Source: Butyricimonas sp. Marseille-P3923 (lineage in GTDB: Bacteria > Bacteroidota > Bacteroidia > Bacteroidales > Marinifilaceae). Taken from it: 64,000 nt of DNA. The notes beneath the pieces were generated by a model. That model was given only the letters and a program-made list of their open reading frames with translations, did not search any database and had not been told where the DNA came from. Location: positions 496,001 to 560,000 of the forward strand of contig NZ_FXXL01000006.1 in NCBI RefSeq assembly GCF_900184685.1. The letters are read 5' to 3'. Within the stretch, counting starts at the first letter, position 1. Each line of letters begins with the position of its first letter. Shown one piece after another: positions 392-13,037 of this stretch. The position numbers and the translations under genes are program-made.

Positions 392-973
392 ATGCACGAT
401 GATGAATCCGGATTCATATCGAATATAAACGCGAAGAAGGAAATTGCGTGGAAGAAATTATACCGAAGTTACTACCCGGCTCTGTGCAATTACGCTTCCC
501 GGATGATTCAAGATGAAGTGCTCGTGGAAGATATCGTGCAGGAATGTTTTATCAAATTATGGGATTCCCCCGTGACGTTTTCGAGTATCAGGGGGCTCAC
601 GGGATGGCTTTACCAAGCGGTCTATACCCGCTCGTTGAACACGATACGGGATAAAGCCCGCACGAATAAGTTGCGACAGGATTTATGGGACTCCGCACAA
701 GGGGAACCGACCGAGGAAGATGCTGTCGATTCGGCTATCGAAGAAGAGATATTACATAAATTCAGAACCATCATTACCCAACTTTCTCCCCAGCAACAGG
801 AAATCATGAAAATGAGCATGGACGGGATGAAAGTAAAAGAAATCGCCGAAACCCTGAACGTGTCGGAGAACGCTATCAAAATGCAAAAAAAGAGGGCTTA
901 TTCGGCCATACGGGAAGAACTCGGGGAATGCTGGAGCATCCTGCTCGTGACGTCGTTCCCGAATTTATTCTAA
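392..973 (+). CDS. ECF-type RNA polymerase sigma factor (locus 1)
   Basis: 193-residue sigma-70 family protein of ECF size. Region 2 spans about residues 14-80 (YYPALCNYASRMI, then VEDIVQECFIKLW) and region 4 about 120-178, with the helix-turn-helix MKVKEIAETLNVSENAIKMQ. It should direct transcription of the SusC/SusD operon downstream after release from the FecR protein encoded next. This order (sigma, FecR, SusC, SusD) is the usual Bacteroidetes surface-signalling arrangement. The tail ILLVTSFPNLF after region 4 is hydrophobic and a little unusual. The gene follows lspA by only 24 bp, and I see no clear TAnnTTTG promoter in that gap. Confidence 0.93.
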   Translation: MHDDESGFISNINAKKEIAWKKLYRSYYPALCNYASRMIQDEVLVEDIVQECFIKLWDSPVTFSSIRGLTGWLYQAVYTRSLNTIRDKARTNKLRQDLWDSAQGEPTEEDAVDSAIEEEILHKFRTIITQLSPQQQEIMKMSMDGMKVKEIAETLNVSENAIKMQKKRAYSAIREELGECWSILLVTSFPNLF

Positions 974-1106: not shown

Positions 1107-2228
1107 ATGGCTCATTGGGACGAAATAGATGGTATATCCGGGAAATTGCTCAAGAAGATTCTGCTTGGGGAGGGCAGGGATTCACAAGAGGATTCCGGGC
1201 GGCTGACGGACAAATACAAGGATTGGGACACGCTTGCCAAACAATCCAAGAAGGTATTGAAGTATGACGCGAATAAGGCTTTCCGGGAATTGCAGCACCG
1301 GAAATATCGTCGCCGCCACTTGATGACACGATGGAGTGTCGCAGCGAGTATTATGCTGTTGTTCTCTCTCTCTATTTTCTTGATTCAGGAATCTCCCGAA
1401 GTGAAGCCCGTCAAGAAGATTGAGCCGGGGTACAAGAAAGCCACCCTAACCCTGTCCGACGGAACAAGCTGGGATATCCGGGAAACGGCGAAAGTGTTCC
1501 AAGTGAAGGATAGCGAGTTTAAAGTGGATTCGTGCGGGTTGAGTATATTCAATAATGCCATTGCTCCATCCCAAACAGAAACACAATACCACACGTTGAG
1601 CGTACCGAGAGGGGGCGAGTACAATTTAACCCTGTCGGACGGGACGCAAGTCTGGTTAAACTCGGAATCGGAATTACGTTTCCCCACGCGGTTCAACGCG
1701 AACAACCGGACGGTATATTGCAAGGGAGAGGTTTATTTCGATGTTACCCGGAACCCGGACTCTCCTTTTATCGTGAGATTGGATAAAGGTGAGGTCACGG
1801 TGTTAGGCACGGAGTTCTGCACGTCCGATTACGAGAATTCGGTCGTGGAAGTCACCCTCGTGACGGGTGCAGTCCGGTTCAAGGCAGAAAACGGGGATTC
1901 CGTGTCGCTGACTCCTTCCCAACGTCTGGTTTACAACACGGCAACCGACAGTATTTCCGTTACCACGGTGGACACCCGTGCATACACGGCGTGGAAGGAC
2001 AATTTATTCTGCTTCGAGGATGAAACACTGGAAGACATCATGCAGACGCTATCACGATGGTACAATATAGATATACATTTTGAGTCGGAGGATTTAAAAG
2101 GGCGACATTTCTCGGGAATCATAGAAAAATACACGGAGATCAAATCTTTCCTAGAACTTTTCGAAACAGGAACAGGTATAAAATTCGACATTTATGGACA
2201 CGAGATAACAGTAAGGAAATCAAGATAA
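1107..2228 (+). CDS. FecR-family anti-sigma factor (locus 1)
   Basis: 373-residue inner-membrane anti-sigma factor that holds the ECF sigma inactive and relays a signal from the outer-membrane SusC STN domain. Residues 1-72 form the basic cytoplasmic part, and one membrane helix lies at about 76-94 (WSVAASIMLLFSLSIFLI). The periplasmic FecR domain spans about 160-265 (SVPRGGEYNLTLSDGTQVWLNSES is typical; also GEVYFDVTRN). A C-terminal DUF4974/STN-like module follows at about 305-373 (NLFCFEDETLEDIMQTLSRWY). It sits 133 bp after the sigma gene, the gap holding the TGTAAT dyads, and 88 bp before susC. Confidence 0.93.
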   Translation: MAHWDEIDGISGKLLKKILLGEGRDSQEDSGRLTDKYKDWDTLAKQSKKVLKYDANKAFRELQHRKYRRRHLMTRWSVAASIMLLFSLSIFLIQESPEVKPVKKIEPGYKKATLTLSDGTSWDIRETAKVFQVKDSEFKVDSCGLSIFNNAIAPSQTETQYHTLSVPRGGEYNLTLSDGTQVWLNSESELRFPTRFNANNRTVYCKGEVYFDVTRNPDSPFIVRLDKGEVTVLGTEFCTSDYENSVVEVTLVTGAVRFKAENGDSVSLTPSQRLVYNTATDSISVTTVDTRAYTAWKDNLFCFEDETLEDIMQTLSRWYNIDIHFESEDLKGRHFSGIIEKYTEIKSFLELFETGTGIKFDIYGHEITVRKSR

Positions 2229-2316: not shown

Positions 2317-5300
2317 ATGCAAAAAAATCCACAAAACACTCGGGAATACCCGTGTGAAGTGAAAAAAATTTTAAGAAAAATGAGGATTACATTGTTATTG
2401 GTACTCTTGTTTGGCTTTTACGCGGAAGCTTCTTCACAAAAAGTTACCCTAAAAGTGAAGAATATGGACCTCTACACGGTTTTGTTGCAATTGAAAAATC
2501 AGAGCGGAGTTCGTATGCTATACGATGCGGATTACACGAAACAAATCAAGTGTAACGATGCTACTTTTCAAGAAGAAGATATCGCCGTCGTTCTGAAAAA
2601 ATTATTGAAAGATACACCTCTTACATTCAACGTTGTAAATGGGGTTTTCGTAATCAATAAGGCGCAAGAAAAAGAGGAGAAAAAGAAATCCGTCACACTC
2701 AAGGGAAGGGTACAAGATGAAAAGAGGGAACCCATGCCCGGCGTAACAATACAATTAGTTGGAACTTCCATCGGTACGGTTACTGACACCAAGGGGCGAT
2801 TTGCAATTACTTTACCACTGGAAAAAGGAATCATCGAATTTTCTTTCATCGGATACGTGAAACAAAAAGTTGTATTCTCGAAAGATATGGCGAACGACTC
2901 ATTACAAATCACTTTACAAGAAGAACTTGTAACCTTAAATGAAGTGGTCGTGACAGGATACCAAACGTTGAAAAAACAGTCTATGGCAGGCTCGACAAGC
3001 CACGTGAAAGCCGGGGATTTGACGATGCTCCCGGGACACACGCTAGAACAAATGTTACAAGGAGCCATACCGGGAATGATGGTAATGAATCAAAGCGGTT
3101 TGACTGGAAGCCGGCAAAAAATCAGAGTACGAGGAACTTCAACATTATTGGGAGATGCAGAACCACTTTGGGTCGTGGATGGTATTATTCAAGAAGATCC
3201 TCTTCCTTTCAAAGCATCGGAATTAACCAATATCGGGAATACCGATATGATAAACGACTTTGTTGGAGGGGCTATTTCTTGGTTAAACCCCAATGATATT
3301 CAAGATGTAACCGTTTTGAAAGACGCTTCTGCCACTGCTATATATGGAGTAAAAGCAGCAAATGGAGTGATTGTCATCACCACGAAGAAGGGGGAAAAAG
3401 GAAGAATGTCCATTACTTATTCCGGAAGTTTTTCCACAAGTACAAAATTTTCCTATGATAAGATGAATTTAATGAACTCGAAAGAAAGGGTTGATTTTTC
3501 TAGAGAAATTTATGAAACCGGAGGATTATTTGAAGAACAAGCACTCGGGTATTTACACTACGCAATGAAGTACAAATTAAGGGAGATTTCCCTAGAAGAG
3601 TTTTCAAAAGAAGTGAGAAAAATGGAAACAGCAAACACGAATTGGTTTGATTTACTTTTCAGGAATCCTTTTAGCCATTCTCATTCCATCAGTATATCAG
3701 GAGGAAACAATCAGGCGTCTTTCCGTGCATCCTTCGGATACTCTGATGCAAACAATACAGCCATAGGCAACGGAAGAACCAGCTACACGGGAAACTTGAG
3801 TACTTCCGCCACATTTTGGGAACGATTGGTAACAAGTTTCACTTTATCGGGAAGTATGAATAAAACCACGGCTTTCGGGATAACGGATCCTTACAGTTAC
3901 GCAAGCAAAACAAGCCGAGCGATATTTTGTTATGACGAGAACGGGGATTATGTTTTTTATCCTATCAAGGGGTATAAATACAATTACTTGTTCGAGCAAA
4001 GAAACAGCGGCAATGCAAATACCGTGTACAGTATAAATAGCTCTCTGAATATCCGTTTCAGTATCTGGAAAGATTTTGTTTTCCAAACATTATTCGGGTT
4101 CAATCTTTCTTCTACTCACGGAGAGATTTATTTTACCGAACACACGAACCGGATCTCTCAAATTCGCGGTTACGAATATCACGCCATAGATGCCGCAACA
4201 AATGCTTTACGCCAAGACGGAGTGTTACCGCACGGAGGAGAATTAACCCAAAAAGAAAACAGAAATCAAAATTACACATGGAGAAATATGTTAGAATGGA
4301 ACAAAAATATAAACAAACATAACTTCTCTTTGATGGTCGGACAGGAGGTTCGAGGTACTCGAGAGGAAGGTTCCTCGTGGACTCATTACGGATATTTACC
4401 AGATCACGGGAAGAGTTTCGCTATAGTGCCTCCAACCTCATACGTGGGAGGAAGTACTCCAAATTCATACGCGGTAGTTTACCCGACAATATCGGACAAA
4501 AAGGTAAATTATTTATCCTTTTTCGCATCGGGAAGTTATATGTTTGATGAACGCTACGCTTTAAACGCCAGCATTCGTATGGATGCCTCCAGTAGATTCG
4601 GGAACGATCGGGATGCACGTTATCAACCGGTTTGGTCTGTTGGGTTACGATGGAATATTACACGAGAACATTGGCTTGAAAATCAAGACATCCTGAATGA
4701 CGTTAGTTTAAGATTTTCATACGGGTTCCAAGGAAACGTAGCTGAAAATGTCGGTCCCGACTTAATCATGACAATACCGAGCTCCGGCAGTATAGACAAT
4801 AAAATCGGGAAATATGTTTACAACATAAAAAGTTTACCGGCACCCGGTTTGACTTGGGAGAAAAATAAAACAATCAATCTGGGTATCGATTTCAGTATTC
4901 TGCATAATAAAGTCAATTGCACTTTTGACTACTACCGTAAACGCACGGAGGATATGATCGTGAATCGTATCGTTCCGTACGAGAACGGAGTGACAAATAT
5001 GATCATAAACGGAGGAAATATGGTCAATTCCGGATGGGATATGGCTGTCAGTCTAGTACCGATTAGAACTCAAGACTTCGTTTGGTCGTTAAGCACGACA
5101 TTCTCAAGCAACAATAACAAAATTGACACGAAATTGGAGAATAAACCGGACTGGAAAACAGCAGCATCGGGGAAACTAAACAAAAAAGGTTATGCCGTTT
5201 CATCCTTCTGGGCATTTAAATACGCGGGATTAAATCCGGGAAACGGAGCTCCCCAATTTGATTTCCTGACGGAGAAGGATAATGCACTGGTAGAGAACGA

Positions 5301-5865
5301 CGCAACGCAATACATGGTATATGCCGGTAAACTTGACCCAGATTTCTCAACGGGAATCAACATGAATTTCCGTTACAAGAAATTATCACTTTCAACAGCG
5401 TTTTATTTAAGTTTTGGCAACAAGCGTTTCCTGAATCCGCTTTACGAAAATACAACGAAAGCTCCTAACGAGAATGATAACCTCACAAAAGAGATGGTGA
5501 AACGCTGGAAGAAACAAGGAGATGAAGTTTTCACGGATGTTCCGGCAATCCCGAATAACTCGAGGAATGCATCAATATCTCCGTTCGGGCGATTAACCGG
5601 GCAAATGTATCCTTACGAGTTGTATAATTATTCCACGGCTCGTGTCGTGAATGCTTCCTTCTTACGTTGTAGTAATATAACATTAGCTTACACTATGCCG
5701 GAAAAATTGATTTCCAAGTTTGCTCAAAGCATGAATTTCTCTTTTACCGTAACAAATCCTTTTCGAATTGTCAGCAAAGACTTCAAAGGCATAGATCCGG
5801 AAGTCGCAACCGGGAACCAACCACTCACGAGCGATTTTACATTGAATTTAAATATCAGTTTTTAA
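2317..5865 (+). CDS. SusC/RagA-family TonB-dependent transporter with STN domain (locus 1)
   Basis: 1182-residue outer-membrane importer. Order of parts: signal segment (hydrophobic core about 24-38), STN domain about 41-114, which contacts FecR, carboxypeptidase-regulatory-like domain about 126-205 (GRVQDEKREPMPGVTIQLVG), TonB-box-like LNEVVVTGY at 207-215, plug domain about 222-357 (QGAIPGMMVM, VVDGIIQED, VLKDASATAIYG), then the 22-strand-type barrel ending in Phe. The start at 2317 gives a long basic n-region; Met22 is an alternative start. Substrate cannot be read from sequence. SusD follows 12 bp downstream, so both are surely co-expressed. Presence of STN means control by the sigma/FecR pair just upstream. 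Confidence 0.96.
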   Translation: MQKNPQNTREYPCEVKKILRKMRITLLLVLLFGFYAEASSQKVTLKVKNMDLYTVLLQLKNQSGVRMLYDADYTKQIKCNDATFQEEDIAVVLKKLLKDTPLTFNVVNGVFVINKAQEKEEKKKSVTLKGRVQDEKREPMPGVTIQLVGTSIGTVTDTKGRFAITLPLEKGIIEFSFIGYVKQKVVFSKDMANDSLQITLQEELVTLNEVVVTGYQTLKKQSMAGSTSHVKAGDLTMLPGHTLEQMLQGAIPGMMVMNQSGLTGSRQKIRVRGTSTLLGDAEPLWVVDGIIQEDPLPFKASELTNIGNTDMINDFVGGAISWLNPNDIQDVTVLKDASATAIYGVKAANGVIVITTKKGEKGRMSITYSGSFSTSTKFSYDKMNLMNSKERVDFSREIYETGGLFEEQALGYLHYAMKYKLREISLEEFSKEVRKMETANTNWFDLLFRNPFSHSHSISISGGNNQASFRASFGYSDANNTAIGNGRTSYTGNLSTSATFWERLVTSFTLSGSMNKTTAFGITDPYSYASKTSRAIFCYDENGDYVFYPIKGYKYNYLFEQRNSGNANTVYSINSSLNIRFSIWKDFVFQTLFGFNLSSTHGEIYFTEHTNRISQIRGYEYHAIDAATNALRQDGVLPHGGELTQKENRNQNYTWRNMLEWNKNINKHNFSLMVGQEVRGTREEGSSWTHYGYLPDHGKSFAIVPPTSYVGGSTPNSYAVVYPTISDKKVNYLSFFASGSYMFDERYALNASIRMDASSRFGNDRDARYQPVWSVGLRWNITREHWLENQDILNDVSLRFSYGFQGNVAENVGPDLIMTIPSSGSIDNKIGKYVYNIKSLPAPGLTWEKNKTINLGIDFSILHNKVNCTFDYYRKRTEDMIVNRIVPYENGVTNMIINGGNMVNSGWDMAVSLVPIRTQDFVWSLSTTFSSNNNKIDTKLENKPDWKTAASGKLNKKGYAVSSFWAFKYAGLNPGNGAPQFDFLTEKDNALVENDATQYMVYAGKLDPDFSTGINMNFRYKKLSLSTAFYLSFGNKRFLNPLYENTTKAPNENDNLTKEMVKRWKKQGDEVFTDVPAIPNNSRNASISPFGRLTGQMYPYELYNYSTARVVNASFLRCSNITLAYTMPEKLISKFAQSMNFSFTVTNPFRIVSKDFKGIDPEVATGNQPLTSDFTLNLNISF

Positions 5866-5877
5866 AAGTCTGAAGTT

Positions 5878-7332
5878 ATGAAATCACAAATAATAATAAT
5901 TACGGTACTTTCCTTGCTAATGACAGGATGTAATGATTTCCTAAGTGTATCCGTACAAGATGAAGTACATCCCCAAACCGTGGATGATTTGGAATCGTTG
6001 TTATTAGGAGAAGCCTATCCTCATAATAAATACCAAAAAGTAGATCTATTAACCGACGATATGCAGTGCAACCCGATGTCGCCCAACCGGGAAGGAGGAC
6101 AAATTGAAGAATTAAACCAATGGGAACCCTATTATTGCTGGTCGTGGAATCTTGTCGATATGTCAAGTTTTGGCTTTTGGGAATTTTACTACAAGAAAAT
6201 CATCGGATGTAATGTTGTTCTAGATCACTTATCCGAAGTCAGCGGAGAAGATAAACAAAAAACTTTCCTAAAAGGACAAAGTTTAACCTTAAGGGCTTAT
6301 TACTATTTATTACTAGTGAATTATTTCGGTTTACCTTACAATCACGGGAAACCGGAAGAGAATTTAGGCGTTCCGCTGAAATTAAATTCCGGTGTAAGGG
6401 ACGAGTACTTCACTCGCAATACAGTGAAAGAAGTATACGAACGTATCGAACAAGACTTGTTAGAGGGAAATCGTCTGATGACTGAAAACAAAATACCGGT
6501 AAGCGTGTACGAGGTAAATGATTTAATGGCAAAAGCGTTATTGTCTCGAATGTACCTTTACATGGAAAAATATAGTGATGCTATTCATTGGGCTGATGAG
6601 GTGCTCTCCCAAAAACCAGAATTGCTTTCACTTAAAGATTTATCCTGGACACTAGGAACGATAAATTATGACAAAAAGATCGAAGGAGTGTATTCCACAA
6701 ACATTAGTCCCGAAATTATATGGGTACACGAAGGAAATTCAGACCAGTATATTACTTGGTCGGGATTATATCCCGTGTACACGGTTTCTAATTCTCTTTT
6801 AAACATCTATGAAGAAAAAGACGGAAAAGCGATAGACTTACGAAAAAATACTTTTCGAAGACACTCGACCAAAGAAGGTGGCAAATTATGTTATATATGC
6901 AGATCCACGGATAATTATCAATTAGGCATACGCACGGCAGAAATCTACTTGAACCGGGCTGAAGCTTATATTCACCAATACGAAAAAACAGGCAATGAGG
7001 AATTCAGAACAAACGCCTTGAAAGATTTGAATTACCTCCGTCGTTCCCGTTACGATACACGTTCCTTCTCTTACCAAGAAATCTCCCACGAGAAGATAGA
7101 AGATTTAAAGGAGTTTTGTAAACAAGAACGACGCAGGGAACTTTGTTTTGAAGAGTTTCATCGTTGGTTTGATCTGCGCCGTTACGGGATGCCCCAAATT
7201 GAGCATACGTTTATCGGTAGTAGTAACGTGGAACAAAGTGTTGTCTTGAAAGAACAATCTCCCCGTTACGTTTTACCTATACCGGAAATTGTTTTAGACG
7301 CAAATCCTCGCTTACAACAAAATCAACAATAA
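5878..7332 (+). CDS. SusD/RagB-family surface lipoprotein (locus 1)
   Basis: 484-residue lipid-anchored lid for the SusC barrel, binding substrate at the cell surface. The lipobox is MTGC at about residues 15-18, giving a lipidated Cys18. Typical SusD features are present: the helical TPR-like core (LTLRAYYYLLLVNYFG; KALLSRMYLYMEKY), and the C-terminal block with ERRRELCFEEFHRWFDLRRYG followed by a YVLPIPE segment near the end. The gene is 12 bp after susC and 21 bp before the next lipoprotein. The shorter length, compared with 500-650 residues in many SusD proteins, is within the RagB range. Confidence 0.95.
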   Translation: MKSQIIIITVLSLLMTGCNDFLSVSVQDEVHPQTVDDLESLLLGEAYPHNKYQKVDLLTDDMQCNPMSPNREGGQIEELNQWEPYYCWSWNLVDMSSFGFWEFYYKKIIGCNVVLDHLSEVSGEDKQKTFLKGQSLTLRAYYYLLLVNYFGLPYNHGKPEENLGVPLKLNSGVRDEYFTRNTVKEVYERIEQDLLEGNRLMTENKIPVSVYEVNDLMAKALLSRMYLYMEKYSDAIHWADEVLSQKPELLSLKDLSWTLGTINYDKKIEGVYSTNISPEIIWVHEGNSDQYITWSGLYPVYTVSNSLLNIYEEKDGKAIDLRKNTFRRHSTKEGGKLCYICRSTDNYQLGIRTAEIYLNRAEAYIHQYEKTGNEEFRTNALKDLNYLRRSRYDTRSFSYQEISHEKIEDLKEFCKQERRRELCFEEFHRWFDLRRYGMPQIEHTFIGSSNVEQSVVLKEQSPRYVLPIPEIVLDANPRLQQNQQ

Positions 7333-7353: not shown

Positions 7354-8244
7354 ATGAAAATTCAGATACTATTTATTTCTATAATTCTCATTTTAGCCGG
7401 AGGATGTTCCGACAAAGACGAATTAACTCCCTCGGAAGGGCTGGAATTCAGCTATTCCTTGCCTCAAGGTGAGCACGATTATGATGCCAAAATTATGGAT
7501 TGGTTTGAACGATACGGTTTTTATGCCCTTTATCGTTTTGCTCCGGAAAAAGACCTCTATTGGAATGGCTCTTTTTCAAATAAAATGACAAATGACAAAT
7601 TTTCAGGTATCCATGGAGAAATGGCAAATGAAATCTACGTCGGAGAACAGTTGCAATTACTTGAGGAAAGTTTCTTGAATTTTTACCAAGACAGTACATT
7701 ATACCGTTGTATGCCTATGAAGTTACTGCTTTGCTCGACATTACAAAAAGCAACATGCGGAGTGGTAGCTGATATTGACGTGTACACCGAAGGGTTAGAT
7801 GTTATTGCCGTGAATCATGGGAATGAAAACATAAAAGAATTCAGTGCAGACAAACGTAATTCTTTTAAAGATGCTATAAACGTGGCTTTTTTACAGCGGA
7901 TGATTTCAACTGGGAAAATAGGAGTATGGGAAGAATTCTCGTCCATCTCGGAATACAGAGCCACCTCTTCCGAAAGTTATTTCGCAAGAGGATTTATCGG
8001 GGGATATTATAGTAGCCGGGAGCCTGATACTGATTTGGCATCTTACTTGGAAGCAATTTTAACCATCCCGGATGAGATTCTCTACGCGGAATCAACAGCC
8101 GGTGATAATTCTTACAAAGGAATCCTGCACTCTTCAAAAGACACACACGGATTAATAAAAATAAAATACAATTTGGTTGTCAAATATTATAAAGAACGTT
8201 ATCAAATAGATCTGTTGAAAATTAGAGATTTCAAATTCAAATAA
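7354..8244 (+). CDS. SusCD-associated lipoprotein, possible zincin-fold relative without HExxH
   Basis: 296-residue lipoprotein with lipobox AGGC. It sits third in the susC-susD operon. The general layout (an N-terminal WFERYGFYALYRF segment, then MPMKLLLCS, then GLDVIAVNHGN, then a long helical C-terminal half with YFARGFIGGYY) recalls the putative zinc-binding metallopeptidase lipoproteins often found beside SusCD, but no HExxH motif is present; AFLQRM occupies the place where it would be expected. If the resemblance is right, this copy is catalytically dead and may bind substrate instead. The family link is from memory of the fold family and is weak. Codon use is AT-rich, like the genes that follow. 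Confidence 0.55.
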   Translation: MKIQILFISIILILAGGCSDKDELTPSEGLEFSYSLPQGEHDYDAKIMDWFERYGFYALYRFAPEKDLYWNGSFSNKMTNDKFSGIHGEMANEIYVGEQLQLLEESFLNFYQDSTLYRCMPMKLLLCSTLQKATCGVVADIDVYTEGLDVIAVNHGNENIKEFSADKRNSFKDAINVAFLQRMISTGKIGVWEEFSSISEYRATSSESYFARGFIGGYYSSREPDTDLASYLEAILTIPDEILYAESTAGDNSYKGILHSSKDTHGLIKIKYNLVVKYYKERYQIDLLKIRDFKFK

Positions 8245-8344: not shown

Positions 8345-9418
8345 ATGAAACACATCGTATTAATCATTAGCCTCTTAATGTTTAGTCCCATTATATTTGG
8401 ACAAGGAGTAAATTTTGAACAACTCACATTCGACGAAGCCCTAACTAAAGCCAAAATAGAAAACAAACTCATATTCATGGACTGCTACACGTCTTGGTGT
8501 GGACCATGTAAACGCATGGTTAAAGATGTTTTCTCTCAAGAAAAAGCCGGAACATATTTCAACTCAAAATTCATTTGCGTGAAATGTGATATAGAAAAAG
8601 GAGAAGGTCCCGAACTGGCAAAAAAATTCAATATTACAGTTGTCCCGACTTTTTTCATTATTCGTCCTAATGGAAGCATACAGCACATGATCGTTGGCGG
8701 AGGAAATATCAATGATTTTATCGCCAAAATTGAGAAAGGATCGAAAGAAAAAACCTCTCTCGACTACTTGAATAAATTACACGAAAAAGGAAAAATGAAC
8801 AAACAGCAACTTCTCTCCTATCGAATCGCCCTGCTTGACGCTAACGAGAGAGACAAAAGTGAAAAAATAGGCGAAGAACTAAACCCTCTATTAAAAGACA
8901 AGGACAAAATGAAAAAAGAATTTTGGCCACTCATGAAGAGAGAAGTCTTTGGTTCAGATAATTTTCAACTTGTTGTAAACAACATTGGTACTTTTAGAAA
9001 AAACATCGGTAAAGAACAAATTGATTCATACCTGTATAACAACTACAAGGATGCCATTGAAAACACGGTCAAAAGCAATGCAAAAGAACCTGTTACCCAA
9101 CTGGAACAAATTCGTCGAGAATTAACCAACAGCGATTTGGAAAAATGTGACCTATTAATGACAAGACTTGACTTATACGAAGCGGCAGTGAAAGGAGATA
9201 CGGAGAAAGTTATCTCGTTAGTCTCACAAAAGGATCCCGAAAATGATCTATGGCCCATCACTTGCGCCCTTAACACAATTAACCCAAAAGCCACAAAAGA
9301 ACAACGAGACCGCATAGTAGCTTTAGGAGAAAGATTCATCGCACACGTTAATGACGAAAAAACAAAAGCATATTTAAAAAAATATTTTCAACAATTTCAA
9401 AACCCCACTCACAAATAA
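8345..9418 (+). CDS. Secreted thioredoxin-like protein, unit 1
   Basis: 357-residue periplasmic or exported protein. ATG at 8345 is chosen over 8306 because it places the signal peptide (MKHIVLIISLLMFSPIIFG) at the very N-terminus, exactly as in the two paralogues downstream. The thioredoxin domain covers about residues 22-130, with active site WCGPC (Cys52, Cys55), an extra Cys47 in MDCYTS, and a cis-Pro segment VVPTFFII. The remaining 220 residues are a Lys/Glu-rich helical region found only in the paralogues here. Likely role is disulfide reduction or exchange in the envelope, or capture of a Cys-containing substrate imported by the SusCD pair; that link is inference from gene order. Confidence 0.85.
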   Translation: MKHIVLIISLLMFSPIIFGQGVNFEQLTFDEALTKAKIENKLIFMDCYTSWCGPCKRMVKDVFSQEKAGTYFNSKFICVKCDIEKGEGPELAKKFNITVVPTFFIIRPNGSIQHMIVGGGNINDFIAKIEKGSKEKTSLDYLNKLHEKGKMNKQQLLSYRIALLDANERDKSEKIGEELNPLLKDKDKMKKEFWPLMKREVFGSDNFQLVVNNIGTFRKNIGKEQIDSYLYNNYKDAIENTVKSNAKEPVTQLEQIRRELTNSDLEKCDLLMTRLDLYEAAVKGDTEKVISLVSQKDPENDLWPITCALNTINPKATKEQRDRIVALGERFIAHVNDEKTKAYLKKYFQQFQNPTHK

Positions 9419-9453
9419 ATATATCCTCAAAGAGTAGTAAAAGTTTATCTATT

Positions 9454-9536
9454 AAAAAGAGTATTCTTCAGCCATAAACGTACAATTTAAATAATAAGCA
9501 AAATTAAAATGATACGATAATGAAGAATCTCTTTTT
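9454..9536. repeat. Inverted repeat between thioredoxin-like genes
   Basis: AAAAAGAGTATTCTTCA (9454-9470) is the reverse complement of TGAAGAATCTCTTTTT (9521-9536) apart from one unpaired base, with about 50 nt between. The right arm ends in a T-rich tract, so the RNA could form a weak termination or stabilising stem between the first and second thioredoxin-like genes. The rest of the 193-bp gap is AT-rich with no gene seen. Confidence 0.4.
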
Positions 9537-9611
9537 AAATCTGTTTTTATGATTTCTTTTTACCTCAAAGGGATATTTCCACAACTTCTTCCGTTTAATT
9601 CAAATTGATTT

Positions 9612-10688
9612 ATGAAAAAATTCATCGTTATTATAATATTGTTACTCCTCTGTCTTACTATTTTCGGGCAAGGAGTGAATTTTGAACAACTCTCGTTTGA
9701 TAAAGCTCTAACTAAAGCTAAAACAGAAAACAAACTTGTATTCATGGATTGCTATACGTCCTGGTGTATACCTTGCAAATTAATGACCGAGAAAATTTTT
9801 CCTCAAAAAAAAGCAGGAGACTTTTTCAACTCAAAATTTGTTTGCGTAAAGTTTGACATGGAAAAAGGGGAAGGTATTGAATTGAAAAAAAGATTCAATG
9901 TCAAATCTTTCCCCACTTTTTTCATTATTCGCCCTGATGGAACAATGCAACACACAGTCGTTGGCAGAAGCGGAATTGATCATTTCATATCTCAAATTGA
10001 AAAAGGTTTAAATGAAAAAACCTCTCTTGATTACTTGAATAAGCTATACGAAAAAGGAAAAATGAACAAGAAACAACTTATAGCCTATCAAATAGCTTTA
10101 CTTGACGCCTATGATAAAGCTAAAAGTGCCGAGATAAACGAAAAATTAAAAACGACTTTGAAAAATAAAGACAAACTAAAAAAAGAATATTGGCCGCTCA
10201 TCGAGAATGAAAGCTATGGCTCAGATAACTTCAAATTAGTCATAAATCATATCGCAACCTTGAAAAAAAGGGTCGGTGAAGAAAAAGTTTATTCATATCT
10301 ATACAATACCTACAATAAAGCAATTGACAACACAATGCGGCATAATGCCAAAGAATCCATCATTTTACTAAATCAAATAAACCAAGAATTAGTTTACCTC
10401 GATTTTAAAAAGAAAAATCAATTAATGGAAAAACTTATTCTAACGAAGGCACTTCTAAATGAAGATGTAGAAAAAGTCATTTCAATAGCTTCACAAGTCA
10501 CCTCTACCAACGATGTATGGACTATCGTTTCAGCCATGAAAAGACTTAAAACTAAAGCAACAAAAGAACAATTAATCCGAATGGCTATGCTAGAAAACAA
10601 ATTCATTACAAATGATATTTTTAAAGAAGAAGAAAAAGCGTATTTAAAAACTATTTTCGAAGCATTCAGAGTTGCTGCTTACAAGTGA
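9612..10688 (+). CDS. Secreted thioredoxin-like protein, unit 2 (CIPC active site)
   Basis: 358-residue paralogue of the preceding gene, collinear over the full length. Signal peptide MKKFIVIIILLLLCLTIFG is followed directly by QGVNFEQLSFD. The active site is WCIPC (Cys52, Cys55), in which the usual Gly is replaced by Ile; dipeptide changes in CxxC are known to alter redox potential. cis-Pro segment is SFPTFFII. The long C-terminal helical region matches unit 1 (for example KTSLDYLNKLYEKGKMNKKQL). The protein ends FRVAAYK, the point at which the next gene's first unit reads on into a second thioredoxin domain. The gene is strongly AT-rich and Lys-rich. Confidence 0.85.
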   Translation: MKKFIVIIILLLLCLTIFGQGVNFEQLSFDKALTKAKTENKLVFMDCYTSWCIPCKLMTEKIFPQKKAGDFFNSKFVCVKFDMEKGEGIELKKRFNVKSFPTFFIIRPDGTMQHTVVGRSGIDHFISQIEKGLNEKTSLDYLNKLYEKGKMNKKQLIAYQIALLDAYDKAKSAEINEKLKTTLKNKDKLKKEYWPLIENESYGSDNFKLVINHIATLKKRVGEEKVYSYLYNTYNKAIDNTMRHNAKESIILLNQINQELVYLDFKKKNQLMEKLILTKALLNEDVEKVISIASQVTSTNDVWTIVSAMKRLKTKATKEQLIRMAMLENKFITNDIFKEEEKAYLKTIFEAFRVAAYK

Positions 10689-10865
10689 ATATGCTTGTTT
10701 AGATAATAGAAAAAATTCATGGAAGTACAAAAAAACTAAATAACATCAATCATACCTGCCATTTTTTTCTTGTTAAAGATAAGTTAATACTGTCCAAAAC
10801 AATAACAGCATTTAGCATTCTTTCCTACCTTGCAAATTCATTTACCAATAATTTAAATTGATTTT

Positions 10866-12890
10866 ATGAAAAGCCTTATCTCGATTATTACCTTATTGAT
10901 ATTCAGCTTTACTGTTTTCGGACAGGGGGTGAACTTCGAGCATCTTACATTCGACGAAGCCTTGGCGAAAGCTAAAGCGGAGAATAAGCTCATCTTCATG
11001 GATTGCTACATCATCGGATGCGGACCTTGTAAATACATGAGCGAAAAAGTTTTCACACAAGAAAAAGCCGGCGTATATTTTAACCCGAAATTTATATGTG
11101 TGAAATTTGACATGGGAAAAGGCGAAGGACCAACATTGGCAAAAAGATTCGAAGTCAAAGCCTACCCGACTTTCCTCATCATTCACCCAGACGGAAACAT
11201 TCAACACAAGATTGTCGGAGGCGGGGAGTTGGAAGATTTTATTCCCCGTGTCGAAAAGGGGCTACACGAAAAAACTTCTTTGAGTTACTTAACGAAGTTA
11301 CACGAAAAAAAGAAAATGAACAAAAAACAATTGATAGATTACCAAATTGCCCTACTTACTGCCGACGAAAAAGAGAAAAGTGCAAACGTAGCTGAAGAAT
11401 TGGCGACTGTTTTAAAAGACAAGGACAAATTGCAAAAAAAATATTGGACAATTATCGAAAATGACGGCTATGGTTCCTCTAACTTCAAATTTGTCGTAGC
11501 TAACGTTGACCGTTTCAAAAAAAATGTAGGTAAAGATAAAGTAGACGCATACCTATATAATAATTATAACAAAGCCATTGATAATTGTACACGTTGGGGA
11601 GCAAAAGAACCCCAAGTTCAATTGACCAAAATCCGTCAAGAATTACTAAACCTCGGGCTAGAAAAGCAAGATAGATTAATAAATAAAGTAGATTTAATCG
11701 AAGCAACTTTGAACAAAGACGTGGAAAAAGTCATTTCGGTGATTTCCCGAAAAAAAACAAACGCTGACATTTTTTCTGTCATGTCAGCCCTCTATGCAAT
11801 CAAATCCAAAGCGACAAAAGAACAATTGGAACGTATAGCTATTTTAGGAAATAAATTCATAGAAAATGCCGCTCCCGGAAGAGAAAAAGCAGATTTGGAA
11901 ACAATTTTCGAGGATTTCAGAATTGCCGCTCACACAGGAATATACTTCCAAGAATTGACTTATGAGCAAGCCTTGGCGAAAGCGAAACAACAACGGAAGA
12001 GGCTCTTTATCGACTGCTACACCAGCTGGTGCGGTCCCTGCCAATACATGGCAAACAAGGTATTCACACAAAAGAACGTGGGTGATTTCTTCAACAAGAA
12101 TTTCATTTGCGTGAAATATGACATGGAAAAAGGTGAAGGTCCGGAATTAGGCAAGAAATTCGGTGTCAGAGCCTACCCGACTTTTGTCATCGTGAACCCG
12201 GACGGAAGTATCCGCCACAAACTTGTAGGCGGCGGTGAAGGTGAAGAATTTATCAAGCGGGTAGAAGAATCTTTCGATGACGAAAAAGCTCTCGGAACTT
12301 CCATCACCAAATACAATGAAGGAAACCGGGACAAAGCATTTCTGGCTTCTTACGCCCAAACATTACTCGACCTGTATGATCCGGCAGCGAAAGACGTGGC
12401 AAATGAATTGTTTGTAACCTTGAGTGACGAAGAGAAAGTATCTCCCGACTATTGGTTTATCTTTGACAGAAAAGAACTTAGCCCCAAAGGTTCCGACGCG
12501 GAGAAATTCCTGTTGGCCAACCGGGCAAAATTCAACGCTACAATAGGAAAAGAAGTTGTTGATACAAGACTGAGCAAAGATTTACAACAAGAACTCATGG
12601 AAATCCTTGCCACGAAAGGACAGGCAATCAAAGCAACCCGATTTGACGAGATCACGAAAGAAGTGAAAAGTTTGAAACTAAGCAACGAGAAATCATTGCT
12701 CGGGCTTGTGGCTATCGGTAGAGCGGTAAAGGATGGCAATGTCGATCGTTTTCTGGCTACTTGCGAGAAAGAGATGCCAAAAGTAAAAGCAGACAAACGG
12801 TTATTAAATTACTATTTGTCGCAACTTACCACCCGAGGCACTGACGCACAAAAAGCCCGCTGGAAAAAAATCGCGGATAAATATCTATAA
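10866..12890 (+). CDS. Two-unit thioredoxin-like fusion protein
   Basis: 674-residue secreted protein consisting of two head-to-tail copies of the unit encoded by the two genes upstream. Unit A (about 1-357) begins with signal peptide MKSLISIITLLIFSFTVFG and has GCGPC (Cys52, Cys55): the Trp normally preceding the first Cys is Gly. Unit B (about 358-674) has an intact WCGPC (Cys389, Cys392) and VRAYPTFVIV. The junction FRIAAHTGIYFQELTYEQ matches the C-terminus of unit 2 (FRVAAYK, stop) joined to the start of a mature unit (VNFEQLTFDEA), so fusion by loss of a stop codon and linker is the simplest reading. Base composition of unit B is nearer to the genome average than the AT-rich units before it. 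Confidence 0.87.
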   Translation: MKSLISIITLLIFSFTVFGQGVNFEHLTFDEALAKAKAENKLIFMDCYIIGCGPCKYMSEKVFTQEKAGVYFNPKFICVKFDMGKGEGPTLAKRFEVKAYPTFLIIHPDGNIQHKIVGGGELEDFIPRVEKGLHEKTSLSYLTKLHEKKKMNKKQLIDYQIALLTADEKEKSANVAEELATVLKDKDKLQKKYWTIIENDGYGSSNFKFVVANVDRFKKNVGKDKVDAYLYNNYNKAIDNCTRWGAKEPQVQLTKIRQELLNLGLEKQDRLINKVDLIEATLNKDVEKVISVISRKKTNADIFSVMSALYAIKSKATKEQLERIAILGNKFIENAAPGREKADLETIFEDFRIAAHTGIYFQELTYEQALAKAKQQRKRLFIDCYTSWCGPCQYMANKVFTQKNVGDFFNKNFICVKYDMEKGEGPELGKKFGVRAYPTFVIVNPDGSIRHKLVGGGEGEEFIKRVEESFDDEKALGTSITKYNEGNRDKAFLASYAQTLLDLYDPAAKDVANELFVTLSDEEKVSPDYWFIFDRKELSPKGSDAEKFLLANRAKFNATIGKEVVDTRLSKDLQQELMEILATKGQAIKATRFDEITKEVKSLKLSNEKSLLGLVAIGRAVKDGNVDRFLATCEKEMPKVKADKRLLNYYLSQLTTRGTDAQKARWKKIADKYL

Positions 12891-12891
12891 G

Positions 12892-13037
12892 AGTTCATAA
12901 GGTTTATAAGGTTCATAAAGTTTATAAAGTAATGGATGTCTTTCGGGCAAAACTTAACGGCAGTTCATACTGCCGCGGACAAAGCACCCGCAGGGACCAT
13001 AAACCTTATGAACCTTACAAACTTTATGAACTTTATA
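12892..13037. repeat. Inverted arrays of a 9-bp repeat, AARGTTYAT
   Basis: The left arm (12892-12930) is built from tandem copies of AARGTTYAT. The right arm (12999-13037) holds the same array in reverse complement, in nearly the same order, so the arms can pair over most of their 39 bp. Between them lies a perfect small hairpin, CGGCAG-TTCATA-CTGCCG (12958-12975). The element fills the gap between the thioredoxin fusion gene and topA. No coding frame was seen in it. Confidence 0.7.

Follow-up and report, generated by a model that had tools for sequence, protein, structure and literature searches.

Three adjacent genes in a 64,000-nucleotide stretch of the Butyricimonas sp. Marseille-P3923 genome (the window; source genome 5.3 Mb) encode four copies of a unit in which a thioredoxin (Trx) domain is followed by a helical domain, and they lie behind a SusCD uptake operon. 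In this study, units of this family were found to be linked to SusCD across the whole genome: of 45 units, 39 have a SusC gene on the same strand no more than 10 kb upstream. We propose, with confidence that is evenly balanced, that the units are periplasmic reductases or chaperedoxin-like proteins that act on disulfide-bonded peptides after their import by SusCD. In the proposed mechanism, peptides or proteins with disulfide bonds would enter the periplasm through SusCD; there, the helical domain would hold the substrate and the CxxC site would reduce it, with electrons perhaps supplied by the one clear DsbD of the genome (one DsbD_TM match over the cut-off); peptidases, which some sister loci encode, would then cut the reduced substrate.

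The composition of the array given in an earlier note on this DNA was confirmed in the sequence: three genes at 8345-12890 and four Trx-helical units (U1 to U4) with the sites CGPC, CIPC, CGPC preceded by Gly, and CGPC. The open reading frames 8306/8345-9418 (U1), 9612-10688 (U2) and 10866-12890 (U3 and U4) are all open, and the ATG at 8345 is the more signal-peptide-like start of U1 as judged by eye. Pfam thioredoxin domains score over the cut-off in all three genes, with two in the third, and each unit consists of about 125 Trx residues and a helical part of about 190-212 residues. U1 to U3 share 65-70% identity in the Trx domain and 48-55% in the helical part. U4 shares 47-55% and 21-23% with them, respectively, and is a copy of U1 to U3 only in a deep sense. 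DNA repeats with spacings of 1267, 1254 and 1011 are independent evidence of the same copies.

The active sites read TSW-CGPC, TSW-CIPC, IIG-CGPC and TSW-CGPC in U1 to U4. Six genomes were compared, G000 (the window's own) to G005, whose membership in Butyricimonas we infer, and the divergence of these sites that the earlier note had pointed out is upheld: the window's U3 has lost the W before CGPC that all five of its orthologues keep. C32, P34, C35 and P81 are invariant in 61 aligned family sequences, and P81 is presumably the cis-Pro of the thioredoxin fold. Sequence and model together, with a Trx fold, a CxxC site and the later Pro, place the units in the thioredoxin superfamily, with a predicted oxidoreductase activity. 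The N-termini are signal-peptide-like and carry no lipobox (by eye); the units are probably exported, soluble periplasmic thiol-disulfide proteins. CGPC occurs in 38 of 53 own-genome units (partial units counted). A two-unit paralogue (L135 9920-12001; L154-L158) has a second Trx unit without CxxC in all six genomes, and this second unit is conserved and probably non-redox; genes with three Trx units (L030 2-1903; L129 9769-11640) have a first unit without CxxC.

A structure prediction of the unit, which the earlier note had suggested as a check, gave a confident fold for U1, with an AlphaFold2 predicted local distance difference test (pLDDT) score of 95.5 from a 61-sequence alignment. The U3U4 model reached a pLDDT of 90.1 and a predicted template modelling score of 0.61, with the relative placement of its halves unsure, and U4 shows a matching helix series in it. 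The closest folds to the U1 Trx domain are 2kuc (Z 17.5), DsbH and DsbD-gamma (Z 15-17.5). 2kuc, a putative disulphide isomerase of Bacteroides thetaiotaomicron, has a Trx domain like that of the units (43% identity in the aligned part); however, the chains of 2kuc, the DsbD C-terminal domain and DsbH are 117-144 residues long and lack the helical domain of about 220 residues. The helical part of U1 has no Pfam family of its own, and U1 is not among the TPR_8 matches; a weak TPR_8 match is present in 15 of the 61 family members (E<=0.01), and the helical part is possibly a divergent TPR-like solenoid. YbbN/CnoX, a Trx plus TPR protein with a chaperedoxin role, resembles the units in that the Trx domain is followed by a helical, perhaps repeat-like domain. 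Its structure 3qou is a weak match at Foldseek rank 10, but its whole-chain superposition on the units is poor (root-mean-square deviation 20), and the units differ from it in their signal-peptide-like starts and CxxC sites.

For the genome-wide comparison, the 45 family matches with E<=2.1e-11 were taken and the 47 weaker ones of 92 were dropped. SusC genes were found with a 31-residue signature; the best 150 of 162 candidates were scored, yielding 139 matches (135 over the cut-off), of which 136 were kept and the three weakest dropped. The linkage to SusCD that had been claimed for the array was borne out and is wider than claimed: in addition to the 39 units noted above, 44 of 45 lie no more than 15 kb downstream of a same-strand SusC signature, while a random expectation of 12.5% was obtained from 20,000 random positions for the 10-kb distance. 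When counted by cluster, 30 of 34 unit clusters are SusC-linked (binomial p 2e-23). A unit or an AhpC/TSA gene lies within 12.5 kb of 66 of the 136 SusC genes. We mapped 34 loci, selected because SusC is followed by a unit in each; because of this selection, their gene order is no extra evidence for the link. At least 135 matches to the SusC signature score over the cut-off in the genome, which also has 97 AhpC/TSA matches and more than 100 FecR_C matches (best 150 of 223 FecR_C candidates scored).

The divergence of the units follows that of the transporter. Pairwise divergence of the first long Trx-helical gene (TrxH) was compared by rank correlation with that of its neighbours in 33 of the 34 loci (L126, which has no FecR label, was left out). 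TrxH divergence correlates with that of the SusC body (0.44) and SusD (0.46; both p 0.001), and its correlations with FecR (0.11, p 0.10) and the SusC N-terminal segment (0.09, p 0.08) are not significant. The body and SusD are correlated at 0.70, FecR and the N-terminal segment at 0.24 (p 0.002), and the N-terminal segment and the body at 0.07 (p 0.08). Full independence of head and body is not supported, the FecR-body correlation being also significant (0.18, p 0.004).

The SusC of the window combines two lineages. Compared with the operon at the same site in G002, identity is 68% for the sigma factor, 64% for FecR and 71-76% for SusC residues 1-120; beyond residue 120 it is 21-45%, except for 58-64% at residues 241-360, and SusD is 35% identical. 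Compared with the G005 operon L168, the pattern is reversed: SusC is 23-28% identical at residues 1-120 and 51-90% beyond residue 240 (60-residue blocks), with 54% for SusD, 39% for the sigma factor and 33% for FecR. Thus, in the comparison of window positions 2317-5865 with L178 and L168, the head is as at the same site in G002 and the body as in a G005 operon located elsewhere. The identity switches near residue 120 (60-residue resolution), close to the start of CarbopepD_reg_2 at residue 128. No Pfam match to STN, the signalling domain of TonB-dependent transducers, was found in this SusC at E<=0.01; about 127 residues precede CarbopepD_reg_2, and the sigma factor and FecR genes are adjacent. 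We take residues 1-120 to occupy an STN-like signalling position, and the label of signalling head rests on that position. The G+C content is 0.47-0.48 in the sigma factor and FecR genes, 0.32-0.41 from SusC to U3, 0.44 in U4 and 0.47 in topA; that of the SusC N-terminal segment is also low (0.364), though this segment is assigned to the head. From these sequence comparisons, SusC may be read as one site-bound regulatory head (sigma factor, FecR and N-terminal segment) with an exchanged transporter body.

The junctions between lspA and the sigma gene are alike in G000 and G002 (24 and 22 bp). Because of this likeness and the identities of 68% and 64% in the sigma factor and FecR, the sequences favour one origin for the operon at the topA site in these two genomes, yet four of the six genomes are without it. 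A broader picture, which we put forward tentatively and doubt more than we believe, is that Butyricimonas may use peptides and proteins by means of dozens of exchangeable cassettes. In each, a SusC body, a SusD and a Trx-helical chaperedoxin matched to the substrate would move as one, whereas the sensor head that controls them (sigma factor, anti-sigma factor and SusC N-terminal segment) would be separate and bound to its site. The window would then be a caught case, in which the same site between lspA and topA in two species keeps the head while the transporter and cargo differ.

Several observations weigh against the proposal that the units act on peptides imported by SusCD. The substrate of SusCD and of the units is one that we infer, and seven of 53 own-genome units are without CxxC in the scanned stretch. 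Peptidases were counted in the loci with one-sequence profiles of two families: M16 is present in four of 34 loci and met-zincin in four, eight in all, and neither was found by these two single-sequence profiles in the other 26, the window's included. Therefore, peptidases partner the units in some loci, not in most. The Mx1-like protein at 7354-8244 was rejected as the operon's peptidase, as it lacks HExxH. This gene failed the family test for the substrate-import zinc metallohydrolases of TIGR04549 (28.2 bits vs 75) and passed that for PF15890 (28.4 vs 25.6), and HExxH is present in none of the 13 Mx1-like proteins compared (the window's included; the three Mx1 proteins of the genome with high scores were outside this set). 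The tie between unit and transporter is also uneven: the body-TrxH correlation is 0.76 in a nine-locus M16/fasciclin family and falls to 0.22 (p 0.01) in the other 24 loci, where that of SusD and TrxH falls to 0.13 (p 0.071). This drop indicates that the tie is partly block inheritance.

Further points of this kind come from the topA site and from relatives. The two-unit gene encoding U3U4 is located next to topA in all six genomes, and in four of them (G001, G003, G004 and G005) it has no SusCD; the genes of these four follow the order ileS-dksA-lspA-TrxH-topA, and 155-158 bp precede TrxH. In G002, lspA and TrxH are separated by a SusCD operon. Blocks upstream of the two-unit gene are kept at all six sites; therefore, the gene may have its own promoter. 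The retention of these blocks and the lack of SusCD in four genomes indicate, on the evidence of gene order, that U3U4 has a SusCD-independent role. In two other genera of the family, where at most 21 candidates were scored per genome, none of nine two-unit genes is downstream of SusCD, some of the contigs being short; in three of the nine, a FecR-SusC operon begins just downstream of the gene. More distant loci were found with U1 patterns, and the best 80 of 531 were retained, of which 57 with 6 kb upstream were counted, in taxon groups set by hand. SusCD linkage was found in seven of 11 Bacteroidales-type loci, both Flavobacteriia loci, one of four Chitinophagales loci, none of five unassigned loci and none of 35 Saprospirales loci; tandem unit genes occur in 39 of 53 Saprospirales loci. 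The linkage of units to SusCD in relatives, for which the earlier note had suggested a synteny test, holds in seven of the 11 Bacteroidales-type and both Flavobacteriia loci and fails in Saprospirales and for the topA-site gene in four of six genomes. What that note had said would speak against it, units scattered and unlinked to SusCD in relatives, is half of what was found, because no Saprospirales locus is linked.

These observations bear on an alternative that we regard as unlikely, though it has to be taken seriously: the units may be general periplasmic disulfide isomerases or reductases for the cell's own exported proteins, acting as helpers beside importers and lipoproteins made in bulk. 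The position of U3U4 beside topA, the tandem unit genes of Saprospirales without SusCD, and the putative disulphide isomerase 2kuc as the nearest solved domain are in keeping with it. However, unit divergence tracks the SusC body and SusD, and 45 diverged copies, most of them behind importers, are more than a general helper should need.

Hitch-hiking is improbable in our view. According to this explanation, Trx-fold genes are so common and SusC so abundant (at least 135 signature matches over the cut-off) that the link says little of function, and the AhpC/TSA genes do show a weaker version of it, with 55 of 97 within 10 kb. However, random positions fall far short of the units at this distance, and all 12 other U3U4-like matches in the genus (E<=1e-90, five genomes, not chosen by context) are downstream of SusC/SusD. 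A regulatory role of the units instead of a catalytic one on nutrients, in which they would inform the anti-sigma factor of the redox state or occupancy of the importer, is very improbable: a FecR-type gene stands directly before SusC in 33 of 34 loci, but neither FecR nor the SusC N-terminal segment is tracked by the divergence of TrxH, and the two operons at the topA site have the head in common and differ in cargo.

Other gene products accompany the units. In 20 proteins from the new loci, the Pfam families over the cut-off besides Trx were SusD, M16, met-zincin (DUF4953/DUF5117), DUF4843, PKD_2 and fasciclin; two Mx1 matches were under the cut-off, and five proteins had no family at E<=0.01. 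DUF4843 was found in one of the 34 loci and PKD_2 in two. The Mx1-like lipoprotein next to SusD in the window may serve as a binding subunit without catalytic activity. At the topA site of G002, the operon's cargo includes a Redoxin/AhpC-type protein and a peptidase of family S9 (L146 7108-9816 and 5338-5844, minus strand).

Among known systems, RagAB, which imports peptides, is nearest in function to the SusCD locus of the window. RagAB/SusCD uptake loci have the same SusC/SusD pair, sigma and anti-sigma factors and lipoproteins, with peptidases in some sister loci; the loci described here differ by their Trx-helical units, and their peptide cargo is putative. In protease-associated import systems (FusA/FusC), TonB-dependent import is found beside an M16 protease, as in locus L118. 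In contrast, the loci of the units have a SusC/SusD receptor and a Trx partner, with no ferredoxin evidence, and no M16 is present among the operon genes of the window. The word thioredoxin does not occur in the main text of the paper on protease-associated import (PMC6793856). In a flavobacterium, a SusCD pair whose expression goes together with that of a collagenase has been proposed to import oligopeptides (PMC9723704); the idea of a peptide cargo is thus in print, with no Trx partner in that passage. A literature search, which most subscription papers lay outside, found no description of a SusCD and Trx-helical arrangement.

The local duplication proposed in the earlier note stands in part. 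In a tree of 108 rows, the N-units of two-unit genes are in a 40-row clade (96/91) that also includes U1 and U2. U1, U2 and the topA-site N-units are in a 14-row clade (100/83) that holds other SusCD-linked units; therefore, the topA-site N-units do not form an exclusive clade. The C-units of the six topA sites fall in another part of the tree, together with two other units (99/99). U3 of the window and U3 of G005 are sisters (100/99); the pair of U1 and U2 is weakly supported (53/34), and its grouping with U3 of G000 and G005 has values of 65/88. Duplication of U3 within the window's species was rejected, since a clade of U1, U2 and U3 alone fails the approximately unbiased test (p=0.0007), and the duplication is therefore older than this species. 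In U1 and U2 searches of the six genomes (E<=1e-80), the best match in each of the five others is the topA-site N-unit (55-61%), and the window's own U3 is about as close (56 and 58%). The possibility that other species of the genus have distinct orthologues of U1 or U2 was also rejected, as no match beyond the topA-site N-units exceeded 52% in these searches. Being nearest to the topA-site N-units, U1 and U2 probably derive from the lineage of that gene, and the sequences may be read as an old duplication in this lineage, which was retained in the window's species and which the other genomes either lost or never had. U4 is a paralogue of greater age. The four-unit array is a composite of the resident U3U4 beside topA and two N-type units, U1 and U2, in the SusCD-carrying stretch.

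The genes of the window are arranged in the order lspA, ECF sigma factor, FecR, SusC, SusD, Mx1-like lipoprotein, units and topA (Table 1). SusC exceeds the 368-bit cut-off of TIGR04056 with 684 bits and is followed by a SusD with both PF14322 and PF07980 over the cut-off, which identifies a SusCD uptake locus. An inverted repeat with 34-nt arms (91%) is located between U4 and topA (12892-13037). Promoter- and terminator-like sites in a sequence scan were near the numbers obtained for shuffled sequence.

Table 1. Features of the SusCD operon and the Trx-helical array, in window coordinates
Feature	Position	Strand	Evidence
ECF sigma factor (regulatory head)	392..973	+	TIGR02985 129 bits, cut-off 126; 68% identity to same-site sigma gene of G002
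FecR-type anti-sigma factor (regulatory head)	1107..2228	+	PF04773/PF16344; 64% identity to same-site G002 gene
SusC residues 1-120 (before CarbopepD_reg_2; G002 head lineage)	2317..2676	+	71-76% to G002, 23-28% to L168
SusC CarbopepD_reg, plug, barrel (putative exchanged body)	2677..5865	+	TIGR04056 684 bits; Plug 220-351
SusD lipoprotein	5878..7332	+	PF14322, PF07980; 54% to L168, 35% to G002
Mx1-like lipoprotein without HExxH zinc motif	7354..8244	+	PF15890 28.4 bits
U1: signal-peptide-like start, Trx (CGPC), helical domain	8345..9418	+	Open reading frame, Pfam, AlphaFold2 pLDDT 95.5
U2: signal-peptide-like start, Trx (CIPC), helical domain; lowest G+C (0.317)	9612..10688	+	Open reading frame, Pfam
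U3U4 upstream region, blocks common to all six topA-site copies	10705..10865	+	Alignment of six sites and the region before U2
U3: N-unit of resident two-unit gene; Trx site IIG-CGPC	10866..11933	+	Identity, topA-site comparison, tree
U4: C-unit of resident two-unit gene; Trx CGPC; old paralogue	11934..12890	+	Identity, tree; U3U4 model pLDDT 90.1

If the proposed role of the units in SusCD import is true, nutrient import in a gut genus would include disulfide reduction as an integral step, carried out by tens of diverged reductases, each linked to an importer. The pairing of substrates with units could then be predicted and tested, and the units would form a natural series from which the specificity of SusCD pairs could be read. 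As for regulation, the head/body mosaic would point to a way in which these genomes keep more than 100 importers under private control.

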